This document shows, in pieces, positions 2,473-11,315 of a stretch of DNA of 22,102 nt. This DNA is from Bacteroidota bacterium (GTDB taxonomy: Bacteria; Bacteroidota; Bacteroidia; Bacteroidales; Bacteroidaceae). A program made the position numbers and the translations under genes. Below the pieces are notes generated by a model, which searched no databases, was not told the origin of the DNA, and saw only the letters and a list, made by a program, of their open reading frames with translations. The stretch lies in contig JAEXAJ010000102.1 of the NCBI GenBank assembly GCA_023458215.1, positions 1 through 22,102 on the forward strand, written 5' to 3'. Position 1 is the first letter of the stretch. Every line of letters begins with the position of its first letter.

Positions 2473-3816
2473 TTATTTACAGATGGCGCATCCTTCGCAC
2501 TTATTCAGTTCGCCACGGAAGCGTTTCTCTACCAACAGATGCAAGCGGTCCTTCAAAGCATCGAGACGGATGGTGTCGATGACTTCGTTGACGAAAGCAA
2601 ACATCAACAATAGACGTGCCTCACGGGCAGAGATGCCACGTTGCTGCATGTAGAATAAGGCACTCTCATTGAGTTGTCCTACGGTAGCACCATGACTACA
2701 TTTCACATCGTCGGCATAGATTTCCAACTGCGGTTGGGTGTACATGTGGGCTTCGCGGGTGGCACAAAGATTACGGTTGGTTTGCTGGGAACTGGTATGC
2801 TGGGCACCGGGACGCACCAAAACCAATCCGGCAAAAGCACCGGTGGCCTGATCATCGAGCACATACTTGAAGAGTTCATTGCTGGTACAATTGGCAACAG
2901 CATGGTCGATGGTGGTATTATTATCAACATGCTGGTTCTTGTCGGCAATAGCCATGCCGCAGAAGTTGAGATTGGCTCCTTCACCGGCAAGCACTACGTG
3001 GGTTGTATTACGGGTAGTGCCGTTGTGCAGGGTCATCCCGTTCAGCAGGACATTGCTGTTGGCTTCCTGCTTCACATACATATTGCTGATGCGTACCGTG
3101 CTGGTATGCGTTTCTTCCAGTTCATAGAAATCGAGGTTTGCATTCTCACCTACAAATGCTTCGACTACTTGGGTTGCCAGGAAATTAACATTGTCCATGG
3201 CATGATCGCAGGCCAGCAAGCGCACTTGTGCTCCTTCTTCGAGGATAATCAGCACACGGCGATTCACCATGAAGTTCACATCACCACGCAAGATATTAAC
3301 CAATTGGATGGGTTTGTCCACTACAACATTCTTCGGCACATACAGTAAAACACCATCTTGCGCGAAGGCGGTATTAAAGGCGGTCACTCCGTCTTCGGAA
3401 GTATCGGCCAACTTACCGTAGTATTTCTTCACCAATTCCGGGTGTTGTTCCGCCACCTCTCTCAAACTGCTGAAGAGTACGCCTTCAGGCAGGTGAAACT
3501 TAGGCAAGGACTTGTTATAGAAGGCATCGTTCACCACGAAGTACAGGGCGGTACTCATATTGGGCACGTCGCACTTGAATACGTCGTAAGGGTTTACGGG
3601 AATATCCAGCCGGTTAAGATTCAAACCATAATCGGGCTCAAAGAACTTGCTGATATCCGTATATTTGTATTTCTCCTGTTTGCGGGTAGGGAATCCCAGC
3701 CGCTCAAAGTCGGCAAACGCAGCAGCACGGGGAGCATTCAGCACCTCGGTACTATGCCTGCATATCATAGCCTCGGTTTGGGAGAAAAGATCTATGTATT
3801 GTTGTTCTACACTCAT
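2473..3816 (-). CDS. sufD: Fe-S cluster assembly scaffold protein SufD
   Basis: SufD forms the SufBC2D scaffold complex with SufB and the ATPase SufC. The 447-residue protein has the expected order: an N-terminal helical part with LGFPTRKQEKYKYTDI near residue 40, a central right-handed beta-helix (about 160-380), and the C-terminal helical SufC-binding segment FYMQQRGISAREARLLLMFAF (388-408). The conserved VKCSHGATVGQLNE motif at 371-384 contains His375, equivalent to the functionally important SufD histidine of E. coli. Its placement after sufC and the absence of the SufB-type CGAHTFP motif separate it from SufB. Oddly, the C-terminus ends in CEGCAIC, three cysteines at 440, 443 and 446. 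A repeat element lies between it and sufC. Confidence 0.96.
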   Translation of the reverse strand: MSVEQQYIDLFSQTEAMICRHSTEVLNAPRAAAFADFERLGFPTRKQEKYKYTDISKFFEPDYGLNLNRLDIPVNPYDVFKCDVPNMSTALYFVVNDAFYNKSLPKFHLPEGVLFSSLREVAEQHPELVKKYYGKLADTSEDGVTAFNTAFAQDGVLLYVPKNVVVDKPIQLVNILRGDVNFMVNRRVLIILEEGAQVRLLACDHAMDNVNFLATQVVEAFVGENANLDFYELEETHTSTVRISNMYVKQEANSNVLLNGMTLHNGTTRNTTHVVLAGEGANLNFCGMAIADKNQHVDNNTTIDHAVANCTSNELFKYVLDDQATGAFAGLVLVRPGAQHTSSQQTNRNLCATREAHMYTQPQLEIYADDVKCSHGATVGQLNESALFYMQQRGISAREARLLLMFAFVNEVIDTIRLDALKDRLHLLVEKRFRGELNKCEGCAICK

Positions 3817-3822
3817 TTCTAT

Positions 3823-3924
3823 ATTTATGATTTATGATTTATGATTTATTACGCCTATGATTTATGAATTCATAACCGCACATGAGGCGGCATATTCATA
3901 AATCATAAATTATAAATCATAAAT
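3823..3924. repeat. Heptamer-based inverted repeat between sufC and sufD
   Basis: The arms are 3823-3849 and 3898-3924, complementary at 26 of 27 positions. Each arm is a tandem run of the 7-mer ATTTATG (almost four copies). The 48-nt middle adds ACGCCT (3851-3856) facing AGGCGG (3885-3890) and a perfect 14-bp palindrome, TTATGAATTCATAA, at 3862-3875. The right arm overlaps the end of sufC: its final Asp-Leu codons and TGA stop (3925-3917) are made largely of repeat sequence. No T-run follows on the minus strand, so a simple intrinsic terminator is unlikely, and sufD starts only 7 nt beyond the element. Confidence 0.85.
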
Positions 3925-4672
3925 CTCCCGTTTCTTTCTTGATCCAGTCGAAACCACGCGCTTCAATCTCCTGAGCCAGTTCGGGACCACCGGATTTCAC
4001 GATACGTCCTCCCATCAATACGTGTACATGGTCAGGTTTCAGATAATCCAGCAAACGTTGATAGTGGGTGATTACCATAGCACTGGTCTGCGGGGTCTTT
4101 AGTTTGTTGAAGCCGTCGGCTACGATGCGCAAGGCATCTACGTCAAGACCGGAGTCGGTCTCATCGAGGATAGCGAAGCTAGGTTCCAACATAGCCATTT
4201 GGAAAATCTCGTTACGCTTCTTCTCACCACCACTGAATCCTTCGTTTACACTACGATTCGCCAGTTTGTTGTCCAGCTCCACAATGGCACGTTTTTCGCG
4301 CATCAGCTTCAAGAATTCACTTGCCGACAAAGCAGGCAAGTGGCGGTACTTGCGTTGCTCGTTCACGGCGGCACGCATAAAGTTCACCATGGAAACTCCG
4401 GGAATTTCGACCGGAGCCTGGAAAGACAAGAAAATACCTTCATGCGCACGGTCTTCAGGACTCATGGCAAGCAGATCTTTGCCATTGAAAGTAACCGAAC
4501 CACGGGTTACTTCGTATGCAGGATGCCCTACCAAGACATTGCTCAACGTACTCTTTCCGGCACCATTCTGTCCCATCAGCGCATGTACCTCACCGTCACG
4601 AATAGTCAGGTTGATACCTTTCAATATTTCTTTGCCATTGATACTGGCATATAGGTCTTTTATTTCTAACAT
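3917..4672 (-). CDS. sufC: Fe-S cluster assembly ATPase SufC
   Basis: SufC is the ABC-type ATPase subunit that drives conformational change of the SufB-SufD scaffold. With the start at 4672 (MLEIKDLYASI) the protein has 251 residues, the usual size. It shows Walker A GQNGAGKST at 34-42, Q-loop LSFQAPVEIPGVS at 82-94, the signature NEGFSGGEKKRNE at 143-155, Walker B FAILDETDSGLD at 166-177, and the switch His at 203 in VITHYQRLL. An in-frame ATG exists 57 nt upstream, but those extra residues come from the intergenic repeat and are not family-like, so the shorter start was chosen. The last residues (GDL) and the stop codon sit in the repeat downstream, hinting that the natural end of the gene was altered when the repeat arose. 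Confidence 0.96.
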   Translation of the reverse strand: MLEIKDLYASINGKEILKGINLTIRDGEVHALMGQNGAGKSTLSNVLVGHPAYEVTRGSVTFNGKDLLAMSPEDRAHEGIFLSFQAPVEIPGVSMVNFMRAAVNEQRKYRHLPALSASEFLKLMREKRAIVELDNKLANRSVNEGFSGGEKKRNEIFQMAMLEPSFAILDETDSGLDVDALRIVADGFNKLKTPQTSAMVITHYQRLLDYLKPDHVHVLMGGRIVKSGGPELAQEIEARGFDWIKKETGDL

Positions 4673-4681
4673 AATCTTTAA

Positions 4682-4786
4682 AATTAAGAATGAAGAATTA
4701 AGAATGAAGAATTTCTTTTGCATCTTCATTCCTAACTCTTCATTGTTCTATTTTAATTTTTCATTCTTCATTCTTAACTCTTCATT
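4682..4786. repeat. Heptamer-based inverted repeat between sufB and sufC
   Basis: The left side is a run of 7-mers alternating AATTAAG and AATGAAG (4682-4709). Its segment 4689-4712 is complementary at 23 of 24 positions to 4763-4786. The right arm starts exactly at the sufB stop codon (TAA at 4788-4786), and the element fills nearly the whole gap up to the sufC start at 4672. The 50-nt centre contains further TTCATT-like words. No T-run follows on the minus strand, so transcription presumably continues into sufC. Confidence 0.83.
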
Positions 4787-6240
4787 TATCCCACGCTTCC
4801 TTCCAGCGAGATTGCCAGCAGTTTCTGCGCTTCTACGGCAAATTCCATAGGTAGCTTGTTGAGCACTTCCTTGGCGTAACCGTTTACGATCAAGCCGACG
4901 GCATCTTCTGTGGATATACCTCGTTGGTTGCAATAAAATATCTGGTCTTCACTAATCTTGCTGGTAGTTGCTTCATGCTCTACAATAGCCGTTTCATTGT
5001 GAATATCCATATAGGGGAAAGTGTGTGCACCGCATTTATCGCCAAGCAGCAATGAGTCACACTGGCTATAGTTACGAGCATTATCCGCTTTCGCAGCCAC
5101 ACGTACCAAGCCACGGTAAGAGTTTTCACTCTTTCCGGCGGAAATACCTTTGCTGACAATCGTACTACGGGTATTCTTTCCGAGATGTATCATCTTGGTA
5201 CCCGTATCTGCTTGTTGATAGTGATTAGTAACGGCTACACTATAGAATTCAGCCGTAGAATTATCGCCTGTCAGAATACAGGAGGGATACTTCCAGGTAA
5301 TGGCAGAGCCCGTTTCAACCTGCGTCCAGGATAACTTGCTGTCCACACCTTTGCAGTGACCACGCTTTGTTACGAAGTTATACACTCCACCCCGTCCCTC
5401 GGCATCACCCGGATACCAGTTCTGAACAGTGCTGTACTTCACTTCGGCACGATCGTGTACGACAATCTCCACGATGGCGGCATGCAACTGGTTTTCGTCA
5501 CGCATCGGTGCCGTACAACCTTCCAGATAGGAAACGTATGAATCATCATCCGCCACAATCAATGTTCTTTCAAACTGCCCTGTATTACGGGCATTGATGC
5601 GGAAGTAGGTAGACAATTCCATGGGACAACGTACGCCTTTCGGAATATACACAAACGAACCGTCGGAGAATACCGCCGAGTTCAGTGCGGCAAAGAAATT
5701 ATCACGGTAGGGCACTACCGATCCCATGTATTTCTGTACCAAATCCGGATGTTCACGCACGGCTTCACTGAAGGAGCAAAAGATAATGCCTTTCTCCATC
5801 AATGTTTCTTTGAAGGTTGTTTTCACAGATACCGAGTCCATCACAGCATCCACCGCCATACCACTCAATGCCATTTGCTCCTCCAAAGGAATGCCTAACT
5901 TATTGAAAGTCTTTACCAGTTCAGGATCCACTTCATCCATGCTTTTCGGTCCTTCCTTCTTTTTCGTCGGATCGGCATAGTAAGAAATAGCCTGATAATC
6001 TATCTCGGGAATACGGAGATGTGCCCAGGTAGGCATCTCCAGCGTCAGCCAATGGCGATACGCTTTCAAACGAAACTCCAACAGCCATTCCGGTTCATTC
6101 TTCTTCGCCGAAATTAGCCTCACCACATCTTCATTAAGCCCACGCTCAATGATGTCCGTGTGTACATCGGTCGTAAAACCGTACTTGTACTTCTCCTGTG
6201 TGAGTTCCTTTACATATTTATTGGGTTCTTCCTGTTGCAT
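4786..6240 (-). CDS. sufB: Fe-S cluster assembly scaffold protein SufB
   Basis: SufB is the main scaffold subunit on which Fe-S clusters are built within SufBC2D. The 484-residue length fits. Recognisable parts include YKYGFTTDV near residue 18, [16 protein letters not shown] at 49-64, [20 protein letters not shown] at 197-216, LEGCTAP near 239, and the core [10 protein letters not shown] at 402-411 with Cys403, which corresponds to the essential cluster-assembly cysteine of E. coli SufB. The C-terminal [20 protein letters not shown] at 421-440 is also diagnostic. Its ATG overlaps the stop of the upstream CvpA-family gene in a TAATG arrangement, suggesting translational coupling. It leads the sufB-C-D-S order seen here. 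Confidence 0.98.
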
Positions 6241-6746
6241 TATTTATTCAATATATATTGTTCAGTAACCTGTTTTGCTACGGGAAAGAATATCCCGGCA
6301 AATGATTTCATAGGATAATATAACACCGATTCGTTCTTATTTGTTTCACTAATCAACTTATTGTCGGCATCCAAAAACTCTATCACGGCAATCAGCAGAC
6401 TAGTCAGCAGCAGAAACTTCAACGCCCCTAAACCGGAACCCAGCCAATGATTCAGCCAGCCTAGCGACACAGCCTCCATCGCCCTCGTCAGCAAAGACGC
6501 CACCAACGAAAACAGCAACGGAACCGCCAGCCAGATAATGACAAAAGCCAATACCTGTGCCACCGTCATGGAGTCTGTCAACGTAGGGCAGAGTTTTTCC
6601 GCCAGCGAAGCATACAGCATCTTCGCCGCTATAAGCCCGATAATCAGCCCCAGAATAGATGCCAACTGCTTCACAAATCCCTTCATGAAACCGATAATCG
6701 CACCTAGCCCCACAGCCACTATAATGATAATATCTATCGTTGTCAT
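6240..6746 (-). CDS. CvpA family membrane protein
   Basis: This is a 168-residue integral membrane protein of the CvpA (colicin V production) family. Starting at 6746 ([17 protein letters not shown]) it has four hydrophobic segments at roughly 4-20, 27-46, 62-86 and 105-124. The family pattern [20 protein letters not shown] occurs in the first loop and second helix, and [17 protein letters not shown] in the fourth helix. A possible ATG nine codons upstream falls beside the T-run of the upstream terminator and was rejected. The stop codon overlaps the sufB start by one base. CvpA proteins affect envelope stress tolerance and exported factors in enterobacteria; the role here is unknown. The tight link to sufB may simply reflect operon structure. 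Confidence 0.9.
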
Positions 6747-6760
6747 ACTCTCTATATATA

Positions 6761-6840
6761 CAAAAAAAGGCACGGATTACACGGACAAGCACGGTTCTTC
6801 TTAATTAACCAATCCGTGAAATCCGTGTAATCCGTGCCTA
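6761..6840 (-). terminator. Inverted repeat and intrinsic terminator after infB
   Basis: Arms 6768-6785 and 6822-6839 are a perfect 18-bp inverted repeat (AGGCACGGATTACACGGA and its complement). The right arm together with 6811-6821 contains three copies of a 9-mer CACGGATTN on the minus strand, so this is also a tandem-unit repeat. On the minus strand the hairpin is followed immediately by TTTTTTTG (6767-6760), which makes it a convincing intrinsic terminator for infB, whose stop is 15 nt upstream. Since no obvious new promoter lies between it and the CvpA-family gene 22 nt further on, partial read-through into cvpA-suf is likely. Confidence 0.8.
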
Positions 6841-6854
6841 AAAGTTTATTTCGC

Positions 6855-9800
6855 TTACAAAGTTTGTTTTACTTCTACTTCTTCGTAAGATTCAATGATA
6901 TCGCCTACCTTGATGTCGTTGCAATTCGTCAGGCTGATACCGCATTCGAAGTTGGTACCCACTTCTTTCACATCGTCCTTGAAGCGCTTCAAAGCGTTGA
7001 TGGAACCGGTGAAGATAACAATGCCGTCGCGAATCAAACGAGCCTTGTCGCTGCGTTTCACCTTTCCGCTCTTGACCATAGCACCAGCTACGAGACCAAC
7101 CTTGGTGATATTGAATACCTCGCGAACTTCGATATTGGCAGTAACCTGTTCTTTCACAGTCGGTGCCAACATACCTTCCATGGCAGCCTTCACCTCCTCG
7201 ATAGCATCGTAGATAACAGAATACTTGCGGATATCCACACCTTCGTTTTCTGCCAGCTTAGCAGCAGAACCGGAAGGACGTACCTGGAAGCCTACGATAA
7301 TTGCATTCGAAGCCGCAGCCAGCGAAACGTCCGATTCGGAGATTGCACCGACTCCCTTGTGAATTACATTTACCTGTACCTGCTCTGTAGACAACTTAAT
7401 CAAAGAGTCGCTCAGCGCTTCTACCGATCCGTCCACGTCACCCTTCACAATAACGTTCAACTCGTGGAAGTCACCCAATGCCAGACGGCGGCCCACTTCA
7501 TCAAGGGTCAACATCTTCTGAGTACGCAAGCCTTGTTCACGTTGTAACTGCTCACGTTTGTTGGCAATTTCACGAGCTTCCTGTTCAGTCTCGATCACGT
7601 GGAATGTATCACCTGCTGCAGGTGCACCATTCAAGCCCAAGATCAAAGCCGGAGCAGAAGGGCCGGCCTCTTTCATACGAGCATTACGTTCGTTGAACAT
7701 TGCCTTTACCTTACCATAGCTGGTACCTGCCAACACGATGTCACCTACTTTCAGCGTACCGTTAGAAACCAATATCGTAGCTACATAACCACGACCTTTG
7801 TCCAACGAAGATTCAATGATAGAACCGGTAGCGTTACGATTCGGATTTGCTTTCAAATCGAGCATTTCAGCTTCCAGCAATACTTTCTCCATCAATTCGG
7901 GTACACCTATACCCTTCTTAGCGGAGATATCTTGTGACTGATACTTACCTCCCCATTCTTCAACCAGGAAGTTCATAGCTGCCAATTCTTCTTTTATCTT
8001 GTCGGGATTGGCAGTCGGTTTATCAATCTTATTAATAGCAAATACGATAGGAACACCCGCAGCCATAGCATGGTTGATGGCTTCCTTCGTCTGCGGCATC
8101 ACGTTGTCGTCGGCCGCAACAATGATGATAGCAATATCCGTTGCCTTGGCACCACGGGCACGCATGGCGGTAAACGCTTCATGACCCGGAGTATCGAGGA
8201 AAGTAATCTTACGTCCGTCGTCCAACTTCACGTGGTAAGCACCGATATGTTGCGTGATACCACCGGCCTCACCGGCAATTACATTCGCTTTACGAATATA
8301 GTCGAGCAATGAAGTCTTACCGTGGTCAACGTGTCCCATCACGGTTACAATCGGCGCACGATATTCGAGATCTTCCTCTGCATCTTCTTCTTCGACGATA
8401 GCTTGAGCTACTTCCGCACTAACGTATTCGGTCTTAAATCCGAATTCTTCAGCTACCAAGTTGATCGTTTCCGCATCCAGACGTTGGTTGATGGAAACCA
8501 TCATACCAATACTCATACAAGTAGAAATAACCTGCATCACAGATACATCCATCATGTTTGCCAACTCGTTGGCAGTCACAAATTCCGTCAGTTTCAGAAC
8601 CTTGCTATCTGCCATTTCGCGGTCTTCCATTTCCTGCATACGGCTCGAAGCCAGGTCACGTTTATCTTTACGATACTTGGCGCCTTTGTTCTTGCCTTTG
8701 GAGGTAAGACGGGCAAGAGTTTCTTTTACTTGCTTTGCTACGTCCTCTTCGTTTACTTCCTGCTTGATAAGCGGTTTCTTGAAGCGGTCTTTGTTCCTGT
8801 TATTATTGTTGTTGTTATTATTATTTCTTCCACCTTGCTGGTTGTTACCACCGCCACCTTGTTGGTTATTACCTCTTTGGCGATCGTTACCATTGTTGTT
8901 TTGGAAATTCTGAGCGTTGTTGATATCAACTTTCTCCTTATTTATACGCAGACGCTTCTTCTTAGCATTCGGATCATTCTCCTTGGCATTCGGGTCTTTG
9001 GTATCCTTTTGCTTGTTATCGTCGCGACGAATTTCTTTGATAATCGCCTCCTTCATCTGCTTACGCTGATCCTGACGTTGCTTTTCCTTCTCTTCGCGTT
9101 CTTTACGTTTTTCCTCTTTCGATTTCTTTTTAGGACGTGTAGACTGATTCAAAGCAGCTAAGTCAATTTGTCCGATGACATTGATCTTCGATACAAATTC
9201 AGGTTGATGTATCTTGAAGATCTCATCATCTCCACTTACTACCGCTTCTTTCTCCTCTTTTTCAACCACAGTCTCTTTCTTAATGGGTTCCGGAGTAGGT
9301 TCTTGTTTCATTTCTTCCTTTTTAGGTTCTACCTTAACCTCAACAACAGGAGCCGGTTCTTCTTTAGCAACCGGTGCAGGCTGAGGTGCCGGTTTGGGTT
9401 CCGGCTTGGGTTGTACTTTTGGCTCTGGCTGTGGCACTGGTGCAGGCTGGGGTGCAGGCTGAGGTGCGGGAGTCGGTTGCGGCTGAGTTTTTTCTACCAT
9501 CACCGGCGCAGCTTCTTCCACTTTTTTCTCTACAACTACCACTTTTTCCACCTCTTTCTCCTTCTCCTGAACAGGTCTACGGTTCAGTTTATCCAAATCT
9601 ATTTTGCCGACAGGCTTAACTTTCGGACGTGCATCCTCGGGGATAACCGTCTTTATTTCTTCCGGTTTCGCTTTTTCCTGCGTTTCCTTATAGCCGTCAA
9701 TAGACACAGAGGACTTTAAACGGTCCTTGCTCTGACGCTCCTGACTGAAACGCTCCGACTTTATTTTAAGGTCCTTATCTGTACTAAATTCCTTCTTGAG

Positions 9801-9935
9801 CATATCAAACTGCTCATCAGTAATTTTCGTATTAGGGTTTGCCTCAACGGTATACCCTTTCTTTTGCAGGAATTCGACAGCCGTCGTAATTCCTACGTTC
9901 AAATCTCTTGTTACTTTGTTTAACCTTATCGTCAT
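6855..9935 (-). CDS. infB: Translation initiation factor IF-2
   Basis: IF-2 is the GTPase that brings initiator fMet-tRNA to the 30S subunit and promotes subunit joining. The 1026-residue protein starts with the IF2_N-like fold [20 protein letters not shown]. It is followed by a long linker: P/Q/K-rich at 150-215, charged basic-acidic at 265-310, and N/Q/G-rich at 339-383 with a run of nine Asn. A second IF2_N-like segment ([14 protein letters not shown]) lies near 449. The G domain follows with [12 protein letters not shown] at 534-545, [16 protein letters not shown], and NKIDK; the C-terminal beta-barrel and fMet-tRNA-binding domains complete the protein. The linker is longer than in many bacteria, as is usual in Bacteroidetes. 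It lies downstream of nusA with a repeat between them. Confidence 0.98.
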
Positions 9936-9975
9936 ACTTAAAATTTAATGAATAATGGAGAAAGAAGCGGTATTC

Positions 9976-10048
9976 AGTTATAAGTTATTAGTTATAAGTT
10001 ATTTGTTATGAACATGAGCAAATAACTTATAACTAATAACTCACAACT
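9976..10048. repeat. Heptamer-based inverted repeat between nusA and infB
   Basis: Arms 9976-10004 and 10020-10048 are complementary at 27 of 29 positions around a 15-nt loop. The left arm is a run of 7-mers alternating AGTTATA and AGTTATT. The right arm overlaps the nusA stop codon (TAG at 10049-10047). On the minus strand the hairpin is followed by GAATACCGC rather than a T-run, so it does not look like an ordinary intrinsic terminator. InfB starts about 40 nt further on. As RNA it would form a long AU-rich stem right after nusA. Confidence 0.85.
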
Positions 10049-11315
10049 AGTTTTCTCCTTCTTCTTCGAACTCCGATTTCAAAATGCGTAATACTTCGTC
10101 CACCGTTTTTTCTTCGAGATCCGTCTTTTCAACCAACAACTCACGGGGAGCATTCAACACTGCTTTTGCAGTATCAATACCGATAGCCTTGATGGCGTCG
10201 ATTACCCAACCGTCTATTTCATCACGGAATTCATCCAAGTAGATATCTTCATCCTCTACTGTCTGATCCAACTCACGGAACACGTCGATAGTGTACTCAG
10301 TCAACATACTGGCCAGCTTGATATTCAAACCGCCTTTGCCGATAGCCAGCGACACTTCCTCCGGTTTCAGGAACACTTCTGCCTTATGTTCTTCCTCATT
10401 CAAGCGAATAGAAGAGATCTTAGCAGGGCTGAGGGCACGCTGTATAAACAACTGTATATTCGATGTATAATTGATGACATCGATATTCTCGTTGCGAAGC
10501 TCGCGGACGATACCATGAATACGGCTACCCTTCACACCTACACAGGCGCCTACCGGGTCGATACGGTCGTCATAGCTTTCAACGGCTATCTTGGCACGTT
10601 CGCCGGGGATGCGGGCAATCTTCTTAATGGTGATCAATCCGTCATTGATTTCGGGTACTTCCATCTCGAACAGACGTTGCAGGAATACCGGTGATGTACG
10701 GCTCAAGATAATCTTGGGATTATTGTTCCTGTTGTCTACACGGGCTACAACCGCGCGGGCAGTCTCGCCTTTGCGGTAAAAGTCGCTCGGTATCTGTTCG
10801 GTCTTGGGCAACAACAATTCGTTGCCTTCGTCATCAATCAGAAGCATTTCCTTCTTCCAGATCTGATAAACTTCAGCGTTGATAATGTTACCTACCTTAT
10901 CAATGTATTTATTATAGATACTGTCTTTTTCCAGTTCCAAAATCTTAGAGGCCAAAGTCTGGCGCAGGTTCAGGATGGCACGGCGACCAAAGTTAGCAAA
11001 AATCACTTCATCGGTCACTTCTTCACCCACTTCGTAGGAGGCGTCAATCTTCTGTGCTTCACTCAAAGTGATTTGCAGATTGGGATTCTCGATGTCTTCA
11101 TCTGCCACAACTTCACGGTTACGCCATATCTCGAAGTCCCCCTTGTCCGGGTTCACGATCACGTCGTAATTCTCATCGGTGCCAAACATTTTCGCAATCA
11201 CACTACGGAATGACTCTTCGAGCACACTTACCATAGTGGTTCTATCGATATTTTTCAGTTCCTTGAATTCCGAAAATGTATCTATCAAGCTGATAGTTTC
11301 TTCTTTTTTGGCCAT
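10047..11315 (-). CDS. nusA: Transcription termination/antitermination factor NusA
   Basis: NusA binds RNA polymerase and nascent RNA and modulates pausing, termination and antitermination. The 422-residue protein has the N-terminal RNAP-binding domain (IDTFSEFKELKNIDRTTMVSVLEESF, residues 11-36), an S1 domain at about 133-200, and two KH domains. The first carries ACVGVKGSRIHGIVREL at 257-273 and the second carries AIGKGGLNIKLAS at 324-336. A helix-hairpin-helix-like tail (about 370-415) follows. The E. coli-type long C-terminal repeat domains are absent, as is common outside Proteobacteria. It lies 4 nt after rimP, the conserved rimP-nusA-infB order. Confidence 0.98.
   Translation of the reverse strand: MAKKEETISLIDTFSEFKELKNIDRTTMVSVLEESFRSVIAKMFGTDENYDVIVNPDKGDFEIWRNREVVADEDIENPNLQITLSEAQKIDASYEVGEEVTDEVIFANFGRRAILNLRQTLASKILELEKDSIYNKYIDKVGNIINAEVYQIWKKEMLLIDDEGNELLLPKTEQIPSDFYRKGETARAVVARVDNRNNNPKIILSRTSPVFLQRLFEMEVPEINDGLITIKKIARIPGERAKIAVESYDDRIDPVGACVGVKGSRIHGIVRELRNENIDVINYTSNIQLFIQRALSPAKISSIRLNEEEHKAEVFLKPEEVSLAIGKGGLNIKLASMLTEYTIDVFRELDQTVEDEDIYLDEFRDEIDGWVIDAIKAIGIDTAKAVLNAPRELLVEKTDLEEKTVDEVLRILKSEFEEEGEN

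Follow-up and report, generated by a model that had tools for sequence, protein, structure and literature searches.

Short repeat units that form intergenic arrays have been described in several bacterial lineages. Rehm et al. (2015; PMC4692102) reported heptamers, GGGAATC in Xanthomonas and GGGGA(C/T)T in Nostoc, that occur as inverted pairs, with 70 cases in Xcc and 75 in Xac, and a rule for their polarity relative to stop and start codons was published there. MacGregor (2015; PMC4679880) described intergenic heptamer arrays built of TAACTGA direct repeats, found also in five Bacteroidetes and in cyanobacteria, and an excess of heptamers among prokaryotic simple sequence repeats is attributed to Mrazek (2007), as cited in PMC4679880 and PMC4692102. 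Candidate structured RNAs of the human microbiome are reported to include 250 palindromic ones, some of them mostly from Bacteroidetes and a few of them not predicted as terminators (PMC8040213). In titles and abstract openings, with preprints and most subscription papers outside the scope, the matches listed contain no description of tandem-unit hairpins in Bacteroidales. Here we analyse four such hairpins in a 22,102-nucleotide (nt) stretch from a Bacteroidota bacterium (contig JAEXAJ010000102.1; "the window" means this whole stretch), at the junctions sufC/sufD, sufB/sufC, infB/cvpA and nusA/infB. They are rather likely members of a class of short-unit palindromes that are dispersed, turn over fast, settle at the 3′ ends of genes and are mostly tolerated, with a few sites keeping interchangeable mRNA hairpins.

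An earlier note on this DNA had described three junctions with inverted repeats of 7-nt units at the upstream stop codon and a fourth element, at infB/cvpA, with a 9-nt period, and both descriptions hold. The three inverted repeats lie at 3823-3849/3898-3924 (sufC/sufD; 27-nt arms, 96% complementary), 4689-4712/4763-4786 (sufB/sufC; 24 nt, 96%) and 9976-10005/10019-10048 (nusA/infB; 30 nt, 93%), and are built from ATTTATG, AATTAAG/AATGAAG and AGTTATA/AGTTATT units, respectively. Each of them starts in or at the upstream stop codon. The features, all on the minus strand, are as follows.

3898..3925, minus strand: sufC/sufD stop-side arm of ATTTATG/ATTTATA units (transcript orientation), overlapping the sufC stop
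3823..3849, minus strand: sufC/sufD start-side arm of CATAAAT units, followed within a few nt by the sufD ATG at 3816
3850..3897, minus strand: sufC/sufD loop and inner hairpin, as predicted by folding
3917..3919, minus strand: sufC stop TGA, within the outer repeat unit
4723..4786, minus strand: sufB/sufC stop-side array of about nine AATGAAG/AGTTAAG units
4682..4713, minus strand: sufB/sufC start-side arm, CTTCATT/CTTAATT
4786..4788, minus strand: sufB stop TAA; the array begins at the last base of the stop
10019..10048, minus strand: nusA/infB stop-side arm, AGTTATT/AGTTATA, overlapping the nusA TAG (10047-10049)
9976..10005, minus strand: nusA/infB start-side arm
6811..6839, minus strand: infB/cvpA stop-side arm of 9-nt units CACGGATTA/CACGGATTT
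6768..6785, minus strand: infB/cvpA start-side arm, followed by seven T in transcript orientation (terminator-like)

When periods from 5 to 11 were scanned, the best value was 7 at sufC/sufD, sufB/sufC and nusA/infB, and 9 at infB/cvpA. The observed periodic run was equalled by 0, 1 and 0 of 2000 two-base-block shuffles for the three 7-nt elements and by 0 of 2000 for infB/cvpA. The stop-side array of sufB/sufC is longer and less regular, with 69% matches. In transcript orientation the three 7-nt elements fold at -37.3, -32.0 and -36.6 kcal/mol (z -6.7, -6.8 and -9.0), and none of 200 shuffles folds as stably. The window units ATTTATG, AATGAAG and AGTTATA contain no GGG, so that a G-tract of the quadruplex type is missing. 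At the overlapped sufC stop, the SufC C-terminus of the window reads GDL; the 19 other rows compared, in which some genomes occur twice, comprise 17 with GE, one with VDE and one with ADL.

To this we added a survey of 154 loci (2.9 Mb, mostly Bacteroidales) with 1715 intergenic stretches, delimited by a home-made gene caller; it bore out the impression of the earlier note that similar elements recur in Bacteroidales. Arrays were counted at a score of at least 12, and the null value is the mean of five dinucleotide shuffles. For period 7, the test that the note had set in advance, 81 intergenic arrays were found against 0.6 in the shuffles. Periods 8, 9 and 10 yielded 25, 25 and 12 arrays, the shuffled values being at most 0.6, and harmonics appear at 14-16. 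The proposal of one class defined by architecture rather than by sequence is supported, and it has to be widened: 7 nt is not exclusive, and periods 8, 9 and 10 belong to the same class. Coding DNA scaled to equal length contains 1.8 period-7 arrays, which rules out a coding origin, and chance in AT-rich DNA is ruled out by the array counts together with the shuffles of period and fold. Four genomes were sampled more extensively, with coding fractions of 0.82-0.91 under the home-made gene models, and therefore some gaps contain missed genes; the poorest of the four, G023, has almost no such elements. Many of the comparison genomes are drafts, and the genomes are related, so that the counts are non-independent. 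The same period also occurs in GC-rich letters: in a metagenome-assembled genome of Bacteroidota, 7-nt units of the GTGAGGTGTGAGGAG type form an array 268 nt long (L040, 19381-19648).

The position of the elements was quantified in 1.2 Mb of the Phocaeicola-group genome G029, considering inverted repeats whose arms measure 16 nt or more. There are 252 of these, 63 with periodic arms at z>2, including 56 with a period of 7-10; the shuffle null is invalid for arms of 16 nt, which occur in four of the 63 and in one of the 56. The 56 comprise 28 with a period of 8 nt, 13 of 10, 11 of 7 and 4 of 9. A bias towards stop codons, as the earlier note had expected, is evident: between same-strand genes, the upstream stop is no more than 20 nt away for 71% of the 41 periodic inverted repeats, compared with 26% of the 115 others, and for 34% of the same-strand periodic ones the other end is likewise within 20 nt of a start, that of the next gene. 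The density of periodic repeats per 10 kb of gap is 0.96 between divergent, 4.89 between same-strand and 6.28 between convergent genes.

A strand polarity accompanies this placement. In a set of 194 loci (3.7 Mb), the arrays within 20 nt after a stop comprise 75 that are G-rich on the coding strand, 18 that are C-rich and 13 that are tied, whereas those in the 30 nt upstream of a start, stop-side arrays excluded, comprise 17 G-rich, 33 C-rich and 10 tied ones (Fisher P 5e-8). Such a polarity, G-rich after stops and C-rich before starts, is enough to yield an inverted repeat in a stop-start or stop-stop gap. Of the 106 stop-side arrays, 52 overlap the stop or lie directly against it, and 58 carry stop triplets in all three frames, compared with 34 for their reverse complements.

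The polarity and the 8-10-nt relatives go beyond the earlier note, as do word families that are dispersed and genome-specific, and shared loop motifs. Units of 7 nt differing by at most one base make up 46% of the pairs within genomes and 14% of those between genomes, and for 8-nt units sharing amounts to 17% and 0.3%, respectively; none of 1000 label shuffles matched the observed sharing of either length. The pattern ANTTAWN, suggested in the note for most units, is one dialect only, and its reversed control is commoner in G003, G005, G007 and G009. AATGAAG hairpins match in 24 of 61 genomes of the genus, with 1 to 52 matches each (overlapping matches included), and the reversed control has no match in the 61 genomes. 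The loop CCATGCGGGCGAAGC is common to AATGAAG hairpins at at least six sites in G068 and at least two in G029, other AATGAAG hairpins among the sites listed for these genomes having different loops. Families, like the contexts of the cap described next, were assigned by eye.

A 13-nt palindromic cap, CCRTCCGGATGGA, matches in 31 of the 61 genomes, with 3 hits in total for its reversed control. Inspection of 30 cap loci by eye revealed 12 with tandem-unit arms (L304 on one side only) and 18 with coding-like or other DNA. The cap is found between arms of the GTTGAC, AATGAAG, ATTTATG and CACAGATTA types, and also beside a one-sided AGTTATG array; in regions of G065, G057 and G067, GTTGAC-type arms surround it in 42 of the 42 contexts listed, some of which are the two strands of one palindrome. 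The pattern TTTATGATTTATN{6,36}ATAAATCATAAA had no match in the 61 genomes, we believe because its phase is unlike that of the arms seen in G022. Recurrent cores and ends were also seen elsewhere. In Segatella copri (G009), three intercistronic gaps (L201 at ~6909-6990, L201 minus strand at ~11067-11145 and L204 at ~4574-4640) share the core CGGCTTTACTRATCATAAAG; between it and the start codon lie TTCAAAG heptads, and the heptads on the stop side differ. In G029 (e.g. L226, L242, L158), an 8-nt ACACAGAG and a 10-nt AACGCAGATT family often open with GAACACAGAG or GAAACGCAG and close with the complement, and these termini look like conserved outer ends.

The elements change quickly between close relatives. 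A fold below -12 kcal/mol is present at sufB/sufC in 17 of 42 genomes, of which 13 have arrays of 7- or 8-nt units there, and at sufC/sufD in only 3 of 42. On a tree built from sufB only, the sufB/sufC junction shows 10 states and 14 changes over 37 labelled tips, with class labels given by eye; the labels cover 37 of the 42 genomes, since L003, L004, L006, G056 and G020 were dropped as long or unclassified gaps, and G040, which has a short remnant, was labelled with its relatives. G069 and G041, 94% identical in DNA, are alike to one base at infB/cvpA, and their sufB/sufC heptad hairpins are unrelated. In the sister pairs G050/G022, G065/G034 and G027/G057 (93-96% identical), the sufB/sufC junction is hairpin-free in the first genome and filled in the second. 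The word family at a junction is replaced or lost within the time of ~6% divergence between sister species. Unit copying, which the earlier note had raised as slippage or templating, is visible at sufB/sufC as a 17-nt unit present five times in G067 and twice in the related G030. Between G029 and G068, a tract of ~400 nt around this junction (L113/L117) is 92-99% identical, with flanks mostly at ~70-88%; from the sequence, this looks like recombination carrying the hairpin between species.

These observations can be joined in the following way. A family of 7-10-nt units would spread within a genome in the form of short dispersed palindromes, with the unit repeated in tandem along both arms. 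A copy would settle at or over a stop codon, with the G-rich unit strand on the coding strand, and the complement of the unit would precede the next start or lie at the opposing stop, forming the inverted repeat. Copies would be gained and lost, probably by replication slippage and by template switching between the arms and round GC-rich caps. In mRNA, the elements could fold into long AT-rich hairpins directly downstream of the preceding cistron. Most of them are probably tolerated rather than needed; a few junctions, of which infB/cvpA is the best documented, keep a hairpin whatever its sequence, presumably as a 3′-end stabiliser or a terminator. Dispersal is needed in this account because a shared word and loop occur at many sites, genomes have their dialects and families are replaced; for the changes in unit number and the interchangeable register, slippage is the simplest cause.

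Several observations weigh against this reading. In the looser whole set, 46% of the elements lie within 5 nt of a stop, compared with 33% under random placement, a weaker bias than in G029. Only 39 of 131 intergenic elements have an inverted match of at least 10 (null 10%), and in Segatella copri 18 of 24 arrays lack an inverted partner, so that many arrays are not hairpins by this test. Shifting the arms of the 7-nt elements by one unit leaves their pairing about equally good: in-register pairing is better in 12 of 21 junction elements and in 50 of 56 G029 elements, the latter value being biased because the register was chosen by best score. Precise mirror copying of the arms thus finds no support. 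A mobilising enzyme was not identified, and at the filled/empty pairs G022/G050, G034/G065 and G057/G027 no target duplication is cleanly readable by eye, the flanks being AT-rich and partly rewritten. Furthermore, the regions that carry the Xanthomonas heptamers are reported to have increased genomic stability (PMC4692102), in contrast to the turnover described above. The relatedness of the genomes and the classification by eye at infB/cvpA, described below, belong to the same side.

It is possible, if unlikely, that the elements are instead functional intercistronic RNA hairpins, each junction being selected for a stem-loop of free sequence that protects the upstream 3′ end or limits read-through. 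The infB/cvpA junction speaks for this explanation. Its hairpin is present in 35 of 35 genomes compared, in 16 sequence classes with 19 inferred changes on the sufB tree (35 tips), although the 35 genomes are related and the classes were assigned by eye. The fold is below -25 kcal/mol in 34 of the 35; the 35th, G029, is missing because its junction was cut short by a misassigned start, and reaches -45.7 kcal/mol when folded with short flanks. For comparison, same-strand gaps of 60-150 nt reach -25 kcal/mol in 50/152, 9/44 and 11/44 cases in three genomes. Retention of a hairpin at infB/cvpA, presumably under selection, is also part of the account given above. The stop-proximal placement, the scarcity in divergent gaps and the very stable folds also fit a functional role. 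However, hairpins are missing from most of the 42 genomes at sufB/sufC and sufC/sufD, and G023 nearly lacks the elements. No signal of selection for RNA-level pairing was found in the G029 mismatches, with 41 G.U versus 49 A.C in periodic stems and 94 versus 88 in other stems; this test is low in power and not decisive, because the non-periodic stems show no signal either. The suggestion of the earlier note that hairpins tune each cistron is supported in part: a hairpin is always kept at infB/cvpA and is optional at the two suf junctions.

The 9-nt word CACRGATTACACRGATT is sporadic, occurring in 7 of 148 genomes of the phylum. In 9 Phocaeicola-group genomes (e.g. L081, L085) the infB/cvpA slot is filled by another hairpin family with TGTCATYCTGAGCG-like ends and without short-unit arms, which in L083 is also found at sufB/sufC. 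L002 has GATTTAC heptad hairpins at both nusA/infB and infB/cvpA, the latter with a second palindrome (ends TGAACCAACGGTCGACGAAGTCAA) nested within the heptad arms.

Purely local slippage, in which arrays grow in place round the stop and arms arise by template switching without any dispersal, is unlikely to account for the class. It would explain the frequent overlap with the stop, the change in copy number of the 17-nt unit and the interchangeable register, and in four related genomes the short hairpin-free sufB/sufC junction TAAATGAAGAACTAAGAATTTAA... resembles the window unit. Yet unit and loop are both alike at unlinked sites of one genome, genomes have dialects, and sisters with 94% identity carry unrelated words at one junction. 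Rather doubtful, too, is a dedicated copying process, primed at the GC-rich palindromic cap and at stop codons, that would write arrays of the current 7-10-nt word of the genome, so that architecture, polarity and cap would be inherited and the arm sequence would not.

Repetitive extragenic palindromic (REP) elements, REPINs and bacterial interspersed mosaic elements (BIMEs) have a fixed palindrome sequence and a partner, the REP-associated tyrosine transposase (RAYT). That the elements described here are REP elements moved by a RAYT (a Y1 transposase), or miniature inverted-repeat transposable elements (MITEs) of an insertion sequence, is very unlikely: they are likewise dispersed, palindromic and at 3′ ends, but the transposase family PF01797 was found in 6 of 61 Phocaeicola-group genomes, among which drafts may miss genes; ten genomes have five or more AATGAAG-hairpin matches, and 2 of these contain PF01797 and 8 lack it. 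No clear target duplication was seen at the filled/empty pairs inspected. Ordinary intrinsic terminators are a most improbable explanation, for only the 9-nt infB/cvpA hairpin ends in seven T, whereas the three 7-nt elements have no T-run after the stem, the elements lie within a co-directional gene run, and the T-run counts in G029 (1 of 41 same-strand periodic hairpins, 5 of 115 others) reject a general terminator role.

The window carries on its minus strand, in this order, rimP, nusA, infB, a cvpA-like gene, sufB, sufC, sufD and sufS; the assignment of the cvpA-like gene derives from a weak match below the cut-off. The relatives found for the window SufB are mostly Phocaeicola, with protein identities of at most 94-95%, and the best DNA identity of sufB among the 42 other genomes in the tree is 81%, the source being Bacteroidaceae-like. 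A search of the window at Rfam gathering scores had 0 matches.

Intergenic hairpins with a conserved position may lack a conserved sequence, and RNA searches based on covariation would miss them. At the Phocaeicola junctions, which lie between known genes, close species differ in whether the site is empty, filled or replaced; this makes it directly testable how the 7-nt period arose, how the elements spread and whether they have any role in mRNA.

Among the described systems, REP/REPIN and BIME elements (PMC3116915, PMC3733652) are alike as dispersed palindromes at gene 3′ ends that are reported to be able to form mRNA hairpins; the present elements differ by their tandem-unit arms, and no RAYT link was seen in the genomes searched for PF01797. 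The palindromic RNA candidates of PMC8040213, compared here by description only, come with no mention of tandem-unit arms in the available part of that account. The excess of Mrazek (2007), as cited, shares the peak at a repeat length of 7 nt and is a count of direct repeats, without inversion, polarity or turnover. The TAACTGA system (PMC4679880) is described as a single word in direct repeats, with one "indirect" repeat only, mostly just upstream of start codons in the Beggiatoaceae genome. Closest are the Xanthomonas and Nostoc heptamers (PMC4692102), which, as reported, also consist of 7-nt units, are intergenic, form inverted pairs and are under-represented between divergent genes; they occupy mostly the same gene pairs in two species, with length and sequence varying. 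Theirs is one G-rich, quadruplex-forming unit type per lineage, whereas the elements described here are AT-rich, with many unit families per genome, unit lengths of 7-10, shared caps and replacement of words between close species. All four window elements, in their co-directional gene run, are inverted pairs. The stop/start polarity of Xanthomonas and Nostoc extends to a third phylum, in which the arrays are diverse in sequence and fast-changing, and the Xanthomonas/Nostoc heptamer arrays and the TAACTGA arrays appear as parts of one wider phenomenon.

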